Origin: Pseudomonas sp. RIT409
Lineage (GTDB): Bacteria > Pseudomonadota > Gammaproteobacteria > Pseudomonadales > Pseudomonadaceae
Direction of reading: 5' to 3'
DNA length: 64,000 bases
NCBI RefSeq assembly: GCF_003052515.2
Contig: NZ_QARE02000010.1
Coordinates: forward strand, 62,001 to 126,000
How positions within the stretch are numbered: position 1 is the stretch's first letter; each line of letters opens with the position of its first letter. The notes under the pieces are model-generated. The model was not told the DNA's origin. It ran no database searches and saw nothing but the letters and a program-made list of their open reading frames with translations. Of this stretch, positions 3,795-34,768 are shown in pieces. Both the position numbers and the translations under genes were made by a program.

Positions 3795-5087
3795 TCAAAA
3801 CACTCCCAACAGCATCGCGGTGAAGGTCATCAATACCGATGCGCCAAACAGAAACGGAATGGTGAAGCGTTGGTGATCGGCCAGTTCGACTTTGCACAGG
3901 CCCACCAACAGGAAGGTCGCGGGGGTCAGGGGGCTGACCGGGAAGCCGGTGGTGTGCACACCCAGCAACGACGCTTGGGCCACCTGCAACGGGTCGACGC
4001 CCAGTGCGCGTCCAACCTCGGCGATCACCGGCATCACACCGAAGTAAAAGGAATCCGGATCGAACAGCAGGCTCAGTGGCATCGACAGAAAGCCCACGAC
4101 CATCGGGATCAGCTTGCCGTGGCCGGCGGGAATCTGCGCCACGGCCACTTCGGCCATCGCCTTGAGCATTCCCGTCCCCTGCATGATCCCGGTGAACACC
4201 CCGGCGGCGAGCAGAATGCTGGCCATCGTCAGCGCTGTTTTGGCATGGGCGTCGATGCGGGCGCGTTGCGCATCGACGTTGGGGTAATTGATGCACAGTG
4301 CCAACACCGTTCCGATCATGAACATGACCACCGGATCGACCCACCCTGCGATCATCACGGCCATCACCACGAGGGTCAGCAGCAGGTTGAGGGCAAACAA
4401 CCGCGGGCGGCGCAGCGCGCCTTCCTGCTCGGTCAGCACGCGTTCAGGCACGACGTCGACCGAGCCCCCCGCGCCCAGACCTAGGCGTTTTTCCTCACGG
4501 CGGCCCAGCCACCAGGCGCTGATGAAGACAAACGCCAGGCCGACGATCTGTACCGGAATCAGCGGCTGGAACAAGTCGGCGACCGGCACGTGCAACGCCG
4601 CCGACGAGCGCAGGACCGGCCCGGTCCATGGCAGAAAATTCACCCCCGCGGCCATGGCGGCAACGCAGGCCAGAATCCGGCGGTCGATGCCCAGCCGGGT
4701 ATACAGCGGCAGCATGGCTGGCACCGTCACCAGAAAGGTCACGGCCCCGGAGCCATCCAGGTGCACCAGCAGCGCGAGCAACGCGGTGCCGACAACGATG
4801 CGTGTCGGCCGCGTACCCACCGTGCGCAGGATCCGATCGATGATCGGGTCAAGCATCCCGGCGTCGGTCATCACACCGAAGAACAGAATGGCGAAGACGA
4901 ACATGCCGACCACTGGGGCGACGTTCTTGATGCCGGTGATGATGAACCCGCTGGTCTGCAGGCCGAAGCCGCCAATCAGCGCAGCAAGGATGGGCAGAGC
5001 GATCAGGGCAACCAGGGGGGAAAGGCGCTTGCTCATGACGGCGGCAAGCAGACAAAGAATGGTGATGACACCGAGGGTGGCGAGCAT
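3795..5087 (-). CDS. CitMHS-family citrate/H+-type carrier
   Basis: A 430-residue polytopic inner-membrane protein starting MLATLGVITILCLLAAVMSKR, with about 11-12 hydrophobic segments. CitMHS signatures include VAPVVGMFVFAILFFGVMTDAG, HLDGSGAVTF and DPDSFYFGVMPV. Members exchange metal-complexed or free citrate-like acids with protons or cations. The frame stays open up to 5402, but that extension would cover the divergent LysR start and shows no conserved sequence, so the ATG at 5087 is preferred. It is the first gene of a three-gene operon with the AtuA pair. Divergent LysR gene 5338-6234 is its probable regulator, with a 250-base shared promoter region. Confidence 0.85.
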   Translation of the reverse strand: MLATLGVITILCLLAAVMSKRLSPLVALIALPILAALIGGFGLQTSGFIITGIKNVAPVVGMFVFAILFFGVMTDAGMLDPIIDRILRTVGTRPTRIVVGTALLALLVHLDGSGAVTFLVTVPAMLPLYTRLGIDRRILACVAAMAAGVNFLPWTGPVLRSSAALHVPVADLFQPLIPVQIVGLAFVFISAWWLGRREEKRLGLGAGGSVDVVPERVLTEQEGALRRPRLFALNLLLTLVVMAVMIAGWVDPVVMFMIGTVLALCINYPNVDAQRARIDAHAKTALTMASILLAAGVFTGIMQGTGMLKAMAEVAVAQIPAGHGKLIPMVVGFLSMPLSLLFDPDSFYFGVMPVIAEVGRALGVDPLQVAQASLLGVHTTGFPVSPLTPATFLLVGLCKVELADHQRFTIPFLFGASVLMTFTAMLLGVF

Positions 5088-21828: not shown

Positions 21829-22662
21829 ATGCGCACGCTGCAATTGGCTGAGAAAACCGTACCCGTCATCGGTCAGGGCACCTGGCGCATGGGCGAAGAC
21901 CGGCAGCGGCGCCAAGCAGAAATCGCCGCCCTGCAATTGGGCATCGATATCGGGCTGACCCTGATCGACACCGCCGAGATGTACGGCGAAGGCGGTGCCG
22001 AGCAAGTGGTGGGTGAGGCCATCGCAGGCCGCCGCGATCAGGTCACGCTGGTGAGCAAAGTCTACCCGCACAACGCCAGCCGCCACGGCATTCCCGCCGC
22101 TTGCGAGCGCAGCCTGCAGCGGATGAAAACCGATCATATCGATCTTTACCTGCTGCACTGGCCGGGCTCGCACCCGCTCGATGAAACCGTCGAAGCCTTC
22201 GAACGCCTGCGCGAGGCTGGCAAGATCGGCCGCTGGGGTGTGTCCAATTTCGACGTTTCGGACCTGCTGGAGCTTGAAACCGTCGACTCCCCAACGGCCT
22301 GCGCCACCAATCAGGTGCTGTACAACCCGGAGCAGCGCGGTATCGAATACGACCTCCTCCCTCGGATGCAGAATGCCTACATGCCGCTTATGGCCTACTG
22401 CCCGATCGGGCAAGGGGGCGACCTGTTGATGAACCCTGCCATTCTCGAAGTCGCCAAGCGCCATGGCGCCACTCCCGCGCAGATCAGCCTGGCGTGGGTG
22501 CTGCGCCAGGACGGCGTGATCGCCATCCCGAAAGCAGTCGACCCCCATCACCTGCGGTCGAACGCCGAGGCGGTGAACATCGAGCTGACCCTGGACGACG
22601 AACTGCTGATCGACACGTCCTGGCCCGTACCGACGCGCAAGCGGCCGTTGGAAATGGTCTGA
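21829..22662 (+). CDS. Aldo/keto reductase
   Basis: A 277-residue NADPH-dependent oxidoreductase. The catalytic tetrad is visible: Asp47 (DTAEMYGEG), Tyr52, Lys77 (LVSKVYP) and His110 (LLHWPG). The cofactor-binding end shows AIPKAV and NAEA motifs. The start is the ATG at 21829, preceded by an AGGAGG ribosome-binding site at 21817-21822; the longer frame is rejected. This is the YeaE/YafB-like cytosolic group that reduces methylglyoxal or other aldehydes, but the substrate is not known. It stands alone. Confidence 0.92.
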   Translation: MRTLQLAEKTVPVIGQGTWRMGEDRQRRQAEIAALQLGIDIGLTLIDTAEMYGEGGAEQVVGEAIAGRRDQVTLVSKVYPHNASRHGIPAACERSLQRMKTDHIDLYLLHWPGSHPLDETVEAFERLREAGKIGRWGVSNFDVSDLLELETVDSPTACATNQVLYNPEQRGIEYDLLPRMQNAYMPLMAYCPIGQGGDLLMNPAILEVAKRHGATPAQISLAWVLRQDGVIAIPKAVDPHHLRSNAEAVNIELTLDDELLIDTSWPVPTRKRPLEMV

Positions 22663-22778
22663 GCGCGGCGACAGGCCAGCAGGCCGGGCATCAAGGCCAA
22701 TGAAAGAGACGGGCAGCAGCAGACTCAAAGAGTCACAAAAACGTCAAAAAGCCTTGCGATGATGCCGCTTTCGAGCCC

Positions 22779-22798
22779 ATGCCCTTTCGGGCATTTTT
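22779..22798 (+). terminator. Terminator-like hairpin just before corA
   Basis: The stem ATGCCC (22779-22784) pairs with GGGCAT (22789-22794) around TTTC and is followed by a T-run. It ends only 15 bases before the CorA-like start codon, so it could end the aldo/keto reductase transcript or act as a leader attenuator. Confidence 0.65.
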
Positions 22799-22813
22799 CG
22801 CCTGCGAGCCTTC

Positions 22814-23830
22814 ATGAACTCAAGCATTGCCCGGACCCACGACGCGGACATTTTCGGTCTGCTGTATGGCTTTCGATTTCGTCCAGGAGAGGCTGCGCAA
22901 CAGATTGACTCGGCGGCCGCTCTGGACGCCTTGCGCAACCCCACCGACCCGAACACTTTCATCTGGCTGCACCTGAACCTCGCCCACGCCAGCTGCGAGC
23001 GCTGGCTGAAAACCCATCTGGACCTGCCCGAAGAATTTTTGGAAGCCTTGCACGAAGGCTCACGCTCGACCCGCATCGAACACGTCGACTCCGCCCTGCT
23101 GGCTGTGGTCAACGACGTGGTGTTCGATTTCAACCGCGTGTCGACCGACATTGCCACGCTGTGGGTGTGCGTGCGCAGCCACCTGATGATTTCTGCCCGG
23201 CATCAGCCCTTGCGCTCCGTCGACCGGCTGCGGTCCTCGGTCAAACAGGGGGAAACTTTTCGCTCTCCGCTGGAGCTGCTCGCGCACCTGGTACGCGATC
23301 AGAGCGACGTGCTGGCGCAATTCATGCGCAAGACCAGCCTCAGCGTCGATCGCATCGAGGACCAATTGCTGGCACAGCGTCTGAGCAACAACCGCACCGA
23401 ACTGGGCGCGATGCGTCGGGTGCTGGTGCGCCTGCAACGCTTGCTGGCGCTGGAGCCAGGCTCGTTGATGCGGTTGCTGCATCGCCCGCCCCAGTGGTTG
23501 CAGGAGGAAGATTTGCAAGAGCTGCGTCAATCCACGGAAGAGTCAGCGCTGGTGATCAGCGACCTCACGGCATTGGGCGAACGCATCAAACTGCTGCAAG
23601 AAGAAATCGCCGCCAACCTCAACGAGCAGAGCAGCCGTACGCTGTTCACCCTGACCGTCGTGACCGTACTCGCACTGCCGATCAACATCGTGGCAGGCTT
23701 CTTCGGCATGAACGTCGGTGGCATCCCGCTGGCCAGCGACCCCCATGGGTTCTGGATTCTGGTGGTGTTGGTGGCGTCGTTCACTTTCATCGCCGGGCGC
23801 TGGGCGTTTCGCAAAAGTCGGGAGTATTGA
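22814..23830 (+). CDS. CorA-family divalent metal transporter (ZntB-like)
   Basis: A 338-residue protein with a large N-terminal cytoplasmic domain and two C-terminal transmembrane helices. The first of these ends in the diagnostic GMN motif (FFGMNVGG, about residue 298). The extended acidic/His N-domain and the GMNVGGIP loop fit the ZntB/CorA branch that moves Zn2+ or Mg2+. A hairpin with terminator features sits immediately upstream, and a broken second copy of the 3' part of the gene lies downstream at 24020-24214. Confidence 0.9.
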   Translation: MNSSIARTHDADIFGLLYGFRFRPGEAAQQIDSAAALDALRNPTDPNTFIWLHLNLAHASCERWLKTHLDLPEEFLEALHEGSRSTRIEHVDSALLAVVNDVVFDFNRVSTDIATLWVCVRSHLMISARHQPLRSVDRLRSSVKQGETFRSPLELLAHLVRDQSDVLAQFMRKTSLSVDRIEDQLLAQRLSNNRTELGAMRRVLVRLQRLLALEPGSLMRLLHRPPQWLQEEDLQELRQSTEESALVISDLTALGERIKLLQEEIAANLNEQSSRTLFTLTVVTVLALPINIVAGFFGMNVGGIPLASDPHGFWILVVLVASFTFIAGRWAFRKSREY

Positions 23831-23860
23831 ACCTCCGCTAATCCGCCTCTGGCCGAAGAC

Positions 23861-23991
23861 GTAGGAGCGCGCTTGCCCGCGATCTGCCGCGAAGCGGCAG
23901 TGAAATCAGACACCTCGGCTCTTTCTGGTACACCGCGTTGGCAGGGTTTTGCTGCCGCTCTGCGGCAGATCGCGGGCAAGCGCGCTCCTAC
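23861..23991. repeat. REPIN copy 1 (inverted REP pair)
   Basis: Two REP units face each other: GTAGGAGCGCGCTTGCCC... at 23861-23883 and its exact inverse at 23969-23991. Inside each arm is a CTGCCGC-N3-GCGGCAG hairpin. This is a typical Pseudomonas REP doublet, mobilised in trans by RAYT transposases; none is visible here. Confidence 0.9.
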
Positions 23992-24019
23992 GCCTTCGGC
24001 AGCATCAAAAGCAGCGCGC

Positions 24020-24214
24020 GTCGTATCGAGGACCAGTTGCTGGCACAGCGCCTGAGCAACAACCGCACCGAACTGGGCGCGATGCGTCGGGTTGCTGCAC
24101 CGCCCGCCCCAGTGGTTGCAGGAAGAGGATTTGCAGGAGCTGCGTCAATCCACGGAAGAGTTGGCGCTGGTGATCAGCGACCTGATGGCATTGGGCGAAA
24201 GTCGGGAGTATTGA
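24020..24214 (+). pseudogene. Broken duplicate of the corA 3' end
   Basis: This stretch is nearly identical to parts of the CorA-like gene from about 23345 to its stop. It lacks 53 bases corresponding to 23420-23472, which shifts the frame, and about 234 bases corresponding to 23581-23814. It keeps the last codons and stop. It is sandwiched between two near-identical REPIN blocks. The unit spacing is 385 bases, so it arose by a tandem duplication of gene tail plus REPIN, followed by internal deletions. Confidence 0.88.
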
Positions 24215-24245
24215 AGCTTCACTCATCCGCCTCTGGCCGAAGGCC

Positions 24246-24376
24246 GTAGGAGCGCGCTTGCCCGCGATCTGCCGCGAAGCGGCAGTGAAATCAGACACCT
24301 CGGCTCTTTCTGGTACACCGCGTTGGCAGGGTCTTGCTGCCGCTCTGCGGCAGATCGCGGGCAAGCGCGCTCCTAC
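24246..24376. repeat. REPIN copy 2
   Basis: Near-identical to the block at 23861-23991, with the same arms at 24246-24268 and 24354-24376. Identity extends on both sides (from the CCGCCTCTGGCCGAAG stretch to AGCAGCGCG), which shows that it was duplicated together with the corA fragment rather than inserted independently. Confidence 0.9.
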
Positions 24377-24532
24377 GCCTTCGGCAGCATCAAAAGCAGC
24401 GCGTGTCTAACGTTTCCTAACGCCACCCATCCGTTATCGCCACAAATCCTCTCGAACCCTGACCTGCGTCGCATCTTTGTCACATTTTGAAATGATCATG
24501 GTTGCCACTTCACCTCGACAGGATTGTGAATC

Positions 24533-26137
24533 ATGGCGACTCCCTCTCTGGCCCGCGACGCTGCCGGGCCGAGCGTTCAATTCGGGCGCAAGCCTGGTGT
24601 GCTGACGATGGTGGTTTTTTTTGCCGTTCTCGCGCTTGGCCTGCTCTACACCGCCTTCAGTCTGAAATCGGACATGGATGACCTGGGCACGGTGGTCACG
24701 ACCTGGGTGCCCTTCCTGCTGCTGGGCGTCGCGCTGGTGATCGCGCTGGGCTTCGAGTTCGTCAATGGCTTCCACGACACGGCCAACGCGGTCGCGACGG
24801 TGATTTACACCCACTCGCTGCCGCCGAACGTCGCGGTGCTCTGGTCCGGCGCGTTCAACTTTCTCGGGGTGCTGTTTTCCAGCGGGGCGGTGGCCTTCGG
24901 CATCATCGCCCTGCTGCCAGTGGAACTGATCCTGCAAGTCGGCTCTTCTGCGGGGTACGCCATGATCTTCGCCCTGCTCATCGCCGCCATCGTGTGGAAC
25001 CTCGGCACCTGGTGGCTGGGCTTGCCCGCGTCGTCTTCGCATACGCTGATCGGCTCGATCATCGGGGTCGGCGTGGCCAATGCGCTGATGCACGGTCGCG
25101 ATGGCACCAGTGGGGTGGACTGGTCCCAGGCGACCAAGATTGGCTATTCGCTGCTGCTCTCGCCGCTGGTGGGCTTCACGTGCGCGGCGCTGTTGTTACT
25201 GGCGCTGCGTGCGTTCGTCAAGAATCGCGCGCTGTACAAGGCACCTAAGGGCAACACCCCGCCACCGCTGTGGATTCGGGGCCTGTTGATCCTGACGTGC
25301 ACTGGCGTGTCCTTTGCTCACGGCTCCAACGACGGTCAGAAAGGCATGGGCCTGATCATGCTGATCCTGGTCGGCACGCTGCCAATGGCCTATGCCCTCA
25401 ACCGTGCGATGCCCGCCGATGAATCGGTGCAGTTCGCCGCAGTGGCGCAGGTCACCCAGCAAGCCTTGATCAAGACCGCGCCTCTGCCCGCGCCGGCTGA
25501 CTCGCGCAAGACCTTGTCCGACTACCTCCGCGACAAACAGCCCACGCCCGAGCTGATCCCGGCCCTGGCCGTCATGGCCGGCAAGATCGGTGACCAGGTC
25601 GCCAGCTACGGCTCCCTGGCCAAGGTGCCCGCCGAAGCCACCGCCAACGTGCGCAACGACATGTACCTGACTTCCGAAGCCATCCGCCTCATGGACAAGC
25701 ACAAGGCCGTCCATTTCGACGCCGACACCCAGGGCAAGGTGCAACTGTTCAAGCAACAGATCGACAACGCGACCCGCTTCATCCCGCTGTGGGTCAAGGT
25801 CGCTGTCGCCATCGCGTTGGGGCTCGGAACCATGGTGGGCTGGAAGCGCATCGTCGTGACCGTTGGCGAGAAGATCGGCAAGACCCACCTGACCTACGCC
25901 CAGGGCGCGTCGGCGGAAGTGGTCGCCATGCTGACCATCGGCGCGGCGGACATGTACGGCCTGCCCGTGTCGACGACCCACGTGCTGTCGTCCGGCGTGG
26001 CCGGCAGCATGACCGCCAATGGCTCGGGTCTGCAGTTGCGCACGCTGCGCAATCTGGCGCTGGCCTGGGTACTGACCTTGCCTGCGGCGATTCTGCTGTC
26101 GGGCGGGCTTTATTGGCTATTCACCCAACTCTTCTGA
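24533..26137 (+). CDS. PiT-family inorganic phosphate transporter
   Basis: A 534-residue inner-membrane protein with about ten helices and a central hydrophilic loop. Both PiT signature repeats are visible: GFHDTANAVATVIYTHSL near residue 83 and SFAHGSNDGQKGMGLIML near 262. There are also two SSSHT/STTHV motifs (PASSSHTLIGS, PVSTTHVLSSG). It carries out low-affinity, proton-coupled uptake of metal-phosphate complexes. Upstream, GTCGCAT and GTCACAT spaced 11 bases apart (24468-24485) weakly resemble a Pho box. It is followed by a strong terminator. Confidence 0.93.
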   Translation: MATPSLARDAAGPSVQFGRKPGVLTMVVFFAVLALGLLYTAFSLKSDMDDLGTVVTTWVPFLLLGVALVIALGFEFVNGFHDTANAVATVIYTHSLPPNVAVLWSGAFNFLGVLFSSGAVAFGIIALLPVELILQVGSSAGYAMIFALLIAAIVWNLGTWWLGLPASSSHTLIGSIIGVGVANALMHGRDGTSGVDWSQATKIGYSLLLSPLVGFTCAALLLLALRAFVKNRALYKAPKGNTPPPLWIRGLLILTCTGVSFAHGSNDGQKGMGLIMLILVGTLPMAYALNRAMPADESVQFAAVAQVTQQALIKTAPLPAPADSRKTLSDYLRDKQPTPELIPALAVMAGKIGDQVASYGSLAKVPAEATANVRNDMYLTSEAIRLMDKHKAVHFDADTQGKVQLFKQQIDNATRFIPLWVKVAVAIALGLGTMVGWKRIVVTVGEKIGKTHLTYAQGASAEVVAMLTIGAADMYGLPVSTTHVLSSGVAGSMTANGSGLQLRTLRNLALAWVLTLPAAILLSGGLYWLFTQLF

Positions 26138-32062: not shown

Positions 32063-34768
32063 GTGTCATCGTTACTGGAAAAAGCCCTGTCCCTGCCATG
32101 GGAACCGTTGTTCAAGGCCCAGAGCCTGGAACGCGGGCTCAGCTATGCCCGTGAACACCGCATCGTGGTCCAGCAGTTGATGCCCGATCTGGTTCGCACG
32201 GCGTGCCGGGGGTCTGCGCTGCAGACCTACGTGCAGACCTTGCAATTCAAGGACCCCGACCGCACTCGTCACTTCGTGGTGGGGGTTTGCACCTGCCCGG
32301 TGAGAAACAACTGCAAGCACTGCGCGGCCGCGTTGTATTACTTGAGCGACCCGGAAAACAAACCCGGGGTTCTGGCCGCCGTCGAGCGGGAAAGACCGGT
32401 CGCCGAGGCCCCTGCCACGCCCAGCTCGCCGTTGCCGGAGCGTATCGAGAAAAAGATCAAGCCTCAGCCACGTCTGACACTCGCCAGTTTCGAATTCAGC
32501 GCCTACGAACCTCGCAACGGCAAAATGCAACGACACGTCCAGCATCGCGCCGCCCTGGCGTTTCGTTATCGTGAGCTGTACGCCTCAGGCATCCCGGCAC
32601 CGGGGCGGCCCAGCGATCTGCTCTGGCATCTGAAGGAGGAAACCCTGCGCCTGCGCCGCCACCTGGACCTTGAGGCGCAGTACCGCAAACAGCTTCAGGA
32701 TCTGGGTTTTCGCATCGCGACTCGCCAGAGCAAGGCCCTGCCCGACAGCGCCGGCGAAATGCTGGAACTGCCCACCGACAAGGCCTGGCTGACTTTCATG
32801 CTCGACGAATTGCCGAAACTGCGCGCGAGCGGCTGGCAGATCGAAATGGCGCCGGACTTCGGTTTTGACGTTACCCCGGTCGAGGACTGGTATGCCGTTG
32901 TCGACGAACAGCCGGAACGCGACTGGTTCGATCTGGAACTGGGGATCATCGTCAACGGCGAGCGCCTGAGCCTGTTGCCGATCCTGATCAACCTGCTGCG
33001 CACCCACCCGGAACTGATGAGCCTGGAGGGGATCGCCAAGCGTCGCGACGACGAACAATTGCTGGTGCAGCTCAACCACTTCACCCAGCGCGGCGGCGGT
33101 CCGATTCAGGTTGCGCTGCCCTACGGACGGCTGCGCCCGGTGCTTGCGACACTGGGCGACTTTTACTGGCGCGAGGACGGCAACCACTCCATCCGGGTGA
33201 AAACGGCGGATGCCGGGCGCCTCACCCACCTCGACGATATGCCCTTGGTGTGGCAAGGCGGCGACCGTCTGCGGCAATTCGCCGAACGCCTGGTCAACAT
33301 CAAGGACGCGCGGGTGACGCCCCCCGATGGCCTGAATGCCACACTGCGCCCCTACCAGCTGGAAGGTCTGAGCTGGATGCAGGCCCTGCGTGAGCTCGAA
33401 GTGGGCGGCGTGCTGGCCGACGACATGGGGCTTGGCAAAACCCTGCAGACCCTCGCCCACTTGCTCAAGGAAAAGGAGGCTGGGCGTCTGACCCATCCAG
33501 CGCTGGCGGTCATGCCGACCAGCCTGATCCCGAACTGGATGGACGAAGCGAAGCATTTCACAGCGCCACTCAAAGTGCTGGCCCTCTACGGCGCCAACCG
33601 GCACCTGGACTTCAACCGCCTGAACGAATACGACCTGATTCTGACCACCTACGCACTGCTGCCCCGAGACGTCGAGATCCTGGGCAAACAGCTGTTCCAT
33701 GTGCTGGTGCTGGATGAGGCGCAGTACATCAAGAACCCTGGCAGCAAGGCGGCGCAGGCGGCGCGCCAATTGAACGCCCGCCAGCGCCTGTGCCTGAGTG
33801 GTACCCCGCTGGAAAACCATCTGGGGGAGCTGTGGTCGTTGTTCCACTTCCTGATGCCCGGATGGCTGGGGGATGCCAAACAATTCGGCAGCAATTACCG
33901 CACCCCCATTGAGCGCCTGGGCGACGAGGCGCGCTTGCAGCACCTGAACGCGCGCATCAGGCCGTTCCTGCTGCGGCGCACCAAGGAACAGGTCGCCACC
34001 GAGTTGCCGCCGAAGACGGAAATCGTGCATTGGGTCGAGCTCAACGATGCGCAGCGTGACGTCTACGAGACCATGCGCCTGGCGATGGACAAAAAGGTGC
34101 GTGACGAGATCACCGCCAAGGGGGCGGCGCGCAGCCAGATCATCATCCTGGAAGCCTTGCTCAAGCTGCGGCAGGTTTGCTGCGACCTGCGGCTGGTGAA
34201 GAGCGCCCCGGCGACGGGGCGCCATTCCAGCTCGGCCAAGCTGGAAAGCCTGATGGATATGATCGAAGAATTGCTCGCGGAGAATCGCAGGATTCTCCTG
34301 TTCTCGCAGTTCACCTCGATGCTCGAACTGATCGAAGCCGAACTGGCTCAACGCGGTATCGCCTACGCCCTGCTGACCGGCCAGACCCGGGACCGGCGCA
34401 CCCCGGTGCAAGAGTTTCAAAGTGGCAAACGCCCGATCTTTCTGATCAGCCTCAAGGCAGGCGGTACAGGCCTAAATTTGACCGCCGCCGACACGGTGAT
34501 CCATTACGACCCCTGGTGGAACCCGGCGGCGGAAAACCAAGCGACCGATCGCGCTTACCGGATCGGGCAGGAAAAGCCGGTCTTCGTCTACAAGATGATC
34601 GCCCGCGGCACGGTGGAAGAAAAAATCCAGCACCTGCAGCAGGAGAAGTCGGCACTGGCAGCGGGCATTCTGGACGGCCGCAAGGCGGGGGACTGGAAGC
34701 TGCAAGAGGAAGACATCGAAGCGCTGTTCGCCCCGCTGCCTGCGCCGCCGAAAAAAGTGAAACGCTGA
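32063..34768 (+). CDS. SNF2-family helicase with SWIM zinc finger
   Basis: A 901-residue protein starting at GTG. A SWIM zinc finger lies at Cys76-x-Cys78...Cys84-x-His86. The helicase core starts near residue 430 with Walker A DMGLGKT (454-460, after Asp453) and the DEAQ box (551-554). The C-terminal helicase domain includes GGTGLNLTAADTVIHYDPWWNP and QATDRAYRIGQ. It is an RapA/HepA-like Swi2/Snf2 ATPase that probably remodels protein–DNA complexes. Exact role unknown. It follows csiV by 13 bases. A hairpin without a T-run follows at 34772-34793. Confidence 0.93.
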   Translation: MSSLLEKALSLPWEPLFKAQSLERGLSYAREHRIVVQQLMPDLVRTACRGSALQTYVQTLQFKDPDRTRHFVVGVCTCPVRNNCKHCAAALYYLSDPENKPGVLAAVERERPVAEAPATPSSPLPERIEKKIKPQPRLTLASFEFSAYEPRNGKMQRHVQHRAALAFRYRELYASGIPAPGRPSDLLWHLKEETLRLRRHLDLEAQYRKQLQDLGFRIATRQSKALPDSAGEMLELPTDKAWLTFMLDELPKLRASGWQIEMAPDFGFDVTPVEDWYAVVDEQPERDWFDLELGIIVNGERLSLLPILINLLRTHPELMSLEGIAKRRDDEQLLVQLNHFTQRGGGPIQVALPYGRLRPVLATLGDFYWREDGNHSIRVKTADAGRLTHLDDMPLVWQGGDRLRQFAERLVNIKDARVTPPDGLNATLRPYQLEGLSWMQALRELEVGGVLADDMGLGKTLQTLAHLLKEKEAGRLTHPALAVMPTSLIPNWMDEAKHFTAPLKVLALYGANRHLDFNRLNEYDLILTTYALLPRDVEILGKQLFHVLVLDEAQYIKNPGSKAAQAARQLNARQRLCLSGTPLENHLGELWSLFHFLMPGWLGDAKQFGSNYRTPIERLGDEARLQHLNARIRPFLLRRTKEQVATELPPKTEIVHWVELNDAQRDVYETMRLAMDKKVRDEITAKGAARSQIIILEALLKLRQVCCDLRLVKSAPATGRHSSSAKLESLMDMIEELLAENRRILLFSQFTSMLELIEAELAQRGIAYALLTGQTRDRRTPVQEFQSGKRPIFLISLKAGGTGLNLTAADTVIHYDPWWNPAAENQATDRAYRIGQEKPVFVYKMIARGTVEEKIQHLQQEKSALAAGILDGRKAGDWKLQEEDIEALFAPLPAPPKKVKR

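Follow-up and report, generated by a model that had tools for sequence, protein, structure and literature searches.

A two-unit REPIN cluster with a captured, decayed corA tail in Pseudomonas sp. RIT409

Results

Behind corA in Pseudomonas sp. RIT409, a long hairpin repeat occurs twice, and the two copies are separated by a decayed copy of the gene's own 3' end. The best explanation, to which we assign a probability of about 0.85, is that this is a two-unit ordered REPIN cluster that arose by local duplication of the corA tail together with the adjoining REPIN, with the copied tail suffering deletions later. The locus lies in a window of 64,000 nucleotides, by which we mean the whole stretch of DNA that was analysed, from a draft genome (G000) of 5.9 Mb in 57 contigs. 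Between corA and the phosphate transporter gene, the order is spacer, REPIN 1, flank, decayed corA tail, spacer, REPIN 2, and flank.

22814..23830, + strand: corA, intact Mg2+ transporter gene, 338 amino acids (Pfam CorA PF01544, E 7.7e-49)
23350..23830, + strand: corA 3' end, source of the captured copy (alignment)
23831..23859, no strand: corA-REPIN spacer, copy 1 (5/29 bases differ from copy 2, plus a 1-base indel)
23860..23992, no strand: REPIN copy 1, two inverted REPs (GTAGGAGCGCGCTTGCCCGCGA...) (inverted repeat; arms extend over 23852-24000)
23993..24022, no strand: downstream flank (f2), copy 1, up to the duplication joint (29/30 identical to 24378-24407)
24021..24214, + strand: decayed corA-tail copy (183/194 identical to corA)
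24215..24244, no strand: corA-REPIN spacer, copy 2 (alignment)
24245..24377, no strand: REPIN copy 2 (132/133 identical to copy 1)
24378..24407, no strand: downstream flank (f2), copy 2, running on into unduplicated DNA ahead of the next gene (alignment)
24533..26137, + strand: PHO4-family phosphate transporter gene, outside the duplication (Pfam PF01384, E 8.6e-90)

Direct-repeat searches and base-by-base alignment agree with an earlier note on this DNA, which had described a near-identical REPIN block present twice at an offset of 385 bases (23860-24022 and 24245-24407). Alignment with the intact gene also bore out the two deletions proposed for the intervening corA tail, which are exactly 53 and 234 bases long, or 287 in total. 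Across the coding bases that remain, 183 of 194 match corA (blastn E 1e-45), far past chance. The stop codon that was said to be kept survives as a TGA triplet, but it closes no corA reading frame because the 53-base deletion shifts the frame and the corA start is absent. The captured tail is thus most likely non-functional.

The duplicated stretch measures about 673 bases, made up of 481 from corA, 29 of spacer, 133 of REPIN, and 30 beyond. At the duplication joint, the two donors overlap by two bases (TC). The joint of the 53-base deletion, at 24090-24092, has a three-base overlap (GGT), and that of the 234-base deletion, at 24198-24199, a two-base overlap (AA). With overlaps of 2, 3, and 2 bases, there are no long homologies at these joints. 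The motifs ATGCG and GCGA/GCAA, previously put forward as the repeats at the deletion junctions, lie near the joints, yet they are not the overlaps themselves. Tandem Repeats Finder reported nothing for the window, probably as a result of the breaks that the deletions make in the unit, and none of the five matches obtained in G000 was a further copy of the corA tail.

The repeat itself is a REPIN, consisting of two inverted REPs in one long hairpin. In copy 1, an inverted-repeat search found the arms (23852-23905 and 23947-24000) to be 91% complementary, and the hairpin predicted with RNA parameters has an energy of -103.7 kcal/mol. The REP core occurs at 270 sites in the genome at no more than one mismatch and the reversed-pattern control at none, which marks an abundant family. 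Among the places listed first, the starts of many inverted pairs are separated by about 65 bases, and those of the corA pair by 109. Other near-full-length genome matches to the corA REPIN reach 82% at best, with shorter pieces of up to 100%, and Rfam gave nothing at the gathering score across 22600-25000. We also considered whether the downstream flank might be a repeated element. Its exact pattern was found only in the two copies at the corA site, with four other places at two mismatches and two for the reversed control; on these counts we regard it as local flank.

The copied DNA extends beyond the REPIN both upstream and downstream. This sustains the earlier proposal that gene tail and REPIN were duplicated as a unit, rather than a REPIN having simply hopped in, and it argues against two simple REPIN insertions. 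We compared the site with 18 loci of relatives, 16 of them distinct. The closest corA relatives among the matches listed were Pseudomonas sp. SLFW, Pseudomonas sp. NFR16, and P. graminis strains. The single-copy state that the earlier note had suggested looking for in related strains is present in strain SLFW (L097). There, one REPIN sits immediately after corA, and the locus can be aligned with the window across the REPIN and the flank and on into the next gene's leader. Pseudomonas sp. LS-2 (L107) also has one REPIN behind corA; its downstream flank differs from that of the window, so it may be a separate insertion. On reading, locus L110 has none. In P. abietaniphila ATCC 700689 (L109), a short REP-like remnant at about 4039-4066 behind corA is joined to a post-REPIN flank of the window's type, and it looks as if a REPIN had been deleted there.

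A survey of corA began with 191 loci, of which five were of insufficient length and the others collapsed into 164 distinct loci; the set includes genera other than Pseudomonas and is biased to close relatives. Copies of the corA tail were found in 4 of the 164, namely in the window, G011, G038, and P. graminis WP_8. G011 (L056) holds three extra tail copies (98.9% over 88 bases), and G038 (L053) three extra decayed copies (84-87% over 55-60 bases) adjoining an assembly gap. REPINs of other types lie between these copies, indicating events separate from that in the window. The variation in unit number that the earlier note had suggested checking for is present, although in other species and through separate events. 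In P. graminis WP_8 (L103, 4018-5000), corA is followed by about 0.9 kb of inserted DNA, at the end of which lie a tail copy (64 bases, 84%) and a second copy of the post-corA stretch; no REPIN was seen in the insert on reading, and we did not count it as the same kind. We likewise set aside a match in G045 (L057, 148 bases, 74%), where the surrounding repeats are short and chance-like.

The ends of other genes have been captured in a similar manner. We scanned the tails and heads of 669 open reading frames against their neighbourhoods in 864 kb of G000 and G011, and arrays were identified by reading. On contig C45 of G000, a 79-base tail of an AraC/DJ-1-type regulator is captured in three REPIN units. 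A second sample added contig C55 of G000, where 46 bases from the tail of a hexapeptide-transferase gene, which we take to be serine acetyltransferase-like, recur in two units (35/46 identical, ungapped). In G011, one unit combines 31 bases from the end of a ferredoxin-type reductase gene with a REPIN and the opening bases of the gene that follows, and in another array a REPIN recurs along with a gene head; heads are thus captured as well as tails. The scan gave a further match on C1 of G000 near 32277-34620. In 964 kb of G000, a count that omits one terminator-like hairpin and one protein-coding repeat yielded seven palindrome-containing tandem clusters, of which at least three, by reading, carry a captured gene tail. 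The ends of such duplications are not fixed at the hairpin edge, since one array in G011 has a downstream flank of about 70 bases that extends into the next gene.

Several additional arrays were noted along the way. One in G011 (L203 17244-18685; G011:C4:247244-248685) has about seven units of 205 bases, each containing a gene end, a REPIN, and the beginning of the gene that follows. REP cores spaced evenly at G000:C10:76661-77436 (about 172 bases apart) and at G000:C18:25637-26443 (about 180 bases apart) resemble further tandem REPIN arrays.

The two units at corA have diverged unevenly, a feature absent from the earlier note. Copies differ at 1 of 133 bases in the REPIN, 1/30 in the downstream flank, 5/29 in the spacer, and 11/194 in the corA tail. 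Divergence in the REPIN is lower than in everything outside it (1/133 versus 17/253, p 0.009) and lower than in the outside sequence near it (6/76, p 0.010). When the upstream part is set against REPIN plus flank, the counts are 15/222 and 3/164 (p 0.027); for corA alone against REPIN plus flank, they are 11/194 and 3/164 (p 0.098). Nine of the 11 corA differences fall at codon position 3 (binomial p 0.0014 against 1/3).

We polarised the 11 corA differences against 19 relatives. The intact gene is derived at four sites, all at codon position 3, and the decayed copy at three, two of them at codon position 2, leaving four without clear polarity. Moreover, the captured tail is no further from the relatives than the intact gene is (-3 to +4 of 194 bases over the 19), a low divergence that implies fewer changes than free decay would give. 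The pattern of sites fits a constrained gene and a free copy, but one that has changed less than free decay predicts. Constraint on the REPIN was considered as the cause of its near-identity and rejected. Between species, with gaps left out, the REPIN and the corA tail diverge about equally: 24/128 (18.8%) and 34/194 corA columns (17.5%) for SLFW against the window, and 21/128 (16.4%) and 38/194 (19.6%) for LS-2. Strong constraint is therefore a poor explanation. Set against these between-species counts, the duplicate pair (1 and 11 differences) gives p 0.045 for SLFW and 0.089 for LS-2.

Across other tandem arrays, the pattern of lower REPIN divergence is weak. All 10 array rows together, the window included with its count near the REPIN (6/76), show 59/923 differences inside the REPIN and 80/829 outside (p 0.013), with the inside lower in 6 of the 10 and the other 4 going in the opposite direction. 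When the window is left out, the counts are 58/790 and 74/753 (p 0.084), with the inside lower in five of nine. A set of seven rows that was picked post hoc, by dropping C54 4521, G011_b 144486, and G020 80668, gives 25/671 versus 70/752 (p 3e-5). Excluded ahead of counting were L056 (hairpin span misassigned), G000_C1 176660 (terminator-like hairpin), and G000_C1 5456 and G011_b 49256 (unit used without an inverted repeat). A second sample of 400 kb contained a single hairpin cluster, with 4/89 versus 13/112 in the same direction (p 0.08). Individual arrays are mixed. In the C45 array of G000, units 1 and 2 differ at 4/87 REPIN bases and 3/79 tail bases, and units 2 and 3 at 2/87 and 11/79; in a G011 array, the captured tail and the REPIN are equally well conserved, and poorer conservation is confined to the downstream flank.

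The sole RAYT transposase found in the draft genome is an NF047646 match of 90 bits (cut-off 80) at G000:C1:194911-195354 (L317 1468-2001). It has an in-frame TAA at codon 44 from its ATG, and the REPs that adjoin it are of a different type from the corA REPIN. Given the early stop and the other REP type, action of the present genome's RAYT on the corA REPIN is unsupported. No match to PF01797, the Pfam Y1 transposase, was obtained in G000 up to E 10, and six other genomes gave two to five each. An earlier RAYT, or one missed by both models, may have acted on the corA REPIN.

Discussion

Our results can be accommodated by a series of events. The ancestral state would have been a single REPIN behind corA, as in SLFW. 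The long hairpin may then have interfered with DNA synthesis, which restarted further upstream at a two-base match, by slippage or template switching, and the 53- and 234-base deletions would have arisen later through similar short-overlap events. We infer this mechanism for the first duplication from overlaps of two to three bases, which fit slippage or template switching, though two-base overlaps are near the chance expectation. The near-identity of the two REPINs would be a later matter, reflecting either homogenisation from copy to copy or replacement of the intact corA tail by a diverged allele.

The latter would refine the main reading. After the duplication, the intact tail could have been replaced through homologous recombination with another strain's diverged allele, in which case the corA difference would measure between-strain divergence, the REPIN difference would give the true age of the duplication, and homogenisation would be unneeded. 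The concentration of corA differences at third positions is in keeping with such a replacement, as are the diverged spacer that adjoins corA (5/29) and the fact that just three sites are clearly derived in the decayed copy, matching the low REPIN divergence. However, four sites lack polarity, constraint on the intact gene would produce the same third-position bias, and some other REPIN arrays likewise have better-conserved REPINs. We consider allele replacement a reasonable possibility that falls short of even odds. A broader generalisation, namely that REPIN hairpins start tandem duplications which capture gene ends, and that the REPINs are then preferentially homogenised while captured coding DNA decays, strikes us as rather unlikely. 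If the homogenisation reading were true, captured gene tails would provide a built-in clock.

The origin of the duplication can also be viewed in other ways. It is improbable, in our estimation, that one-ended transposition mediated by a RAYT copied the REPIN with flanking corA DNA and reinserted it beside the original. RAYTs have been proposed as linked to REPIN mobilisation, according to the text excerpts of PMC3116915, and the duplication does take in one REPIN with both flanks. Yet the only RAYT found has an early TAA and sits beside another REP type, PF01797 found none in G000, and local duplication is the simpler account of a head-to-tail tandem that adjoins its source. Had the same REPIN inserted twice, independently, next to an older corA-tail duplication, it would have drawn on an abundant supply of REPs of this type (270 core sites). 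Such a coincidence is very hard to credit when the two REPINs are 132/133 identical, against 82% for the next best near-full-length match in the genome, and occupy the same position with the same downstream flank, which would require both to have entered at one identical base. An assembly artefact seems just as remote. The genome is a draft in 57 contigs; the copies, however, are told apart by 18 substitutions, the two deletions, and an indel of one base, which makes assembly error unlikely, and a similar array lies inside a 2.49-Mb contig of another genome.

The corA locus is ordinary in kind, yet it is a useful and partly dated example. A coding tail that has been captured lends itself to site-by-site comparison with the intact gene, and this provides direction and relative timing, both of which purely intergenic REPIN clusters lack. 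The locus also shows how REPINs reshape gene ends, leaving behind pieces of genes that may be wrongly annotated as small genes. What deserves further attention is the possible homogenisation of REPINs. With corA affected in three species and other genes as well, closely related strains could serve to test both REPIN-associated duplication and REPIN homogenisation.

With respect to known systems, the corA locus is an ordered REPIN cluster, a clean example of a class already known in Pseudomonas. The corA case itself was unnamed in the titles and abstract openings listed for the literature searched, which was mostly open-access. Ordered clusters were described in 2011 from P. fluorescens SBW25, 16 of them, and excerpts of that paper describe the tandem repeats as "including the flanking sequences" (PMC3116915). 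As in that class, the units in the window run head to tail with near-identical REPINs and flanking sequence, and the downstream flank (30 bases) is shorter than the upstream one (510 in the intact unit). No unrepeated stretch separates the units; instead, the donors overlap by two bases. The legend to Figure S7 of PMC3116915 has a short unrepeated stretch "usually" present, and in view of that wording we do not take it as a defining feature. Unlike the SBW25 clusters, the upstream flank (f1) in the window reaches 481 bases into a coding gene, of which the copy has lost 287 through two deletions, and the excerpts of PMC3116915 make no mention of captured gene ends. Clusters of GTAG-type REPs (PMC3733652) have the REP start GTAG in common with the corA REP, and excerpts of that paper do not single out coding flanks. 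A parallel in process is local REPIN amplification in Escherichia coli, where the rate was estimated from a mutation accumulation experiment (PMC8049555). The E. coli event, unlike that in the window, was a loss of five copies from a cluster of six, with no gene tail mentioned in the excerpted text. In both cases, tandem REPIN copies are gained or lost locally, and the E. coli work treats such change as measurable.
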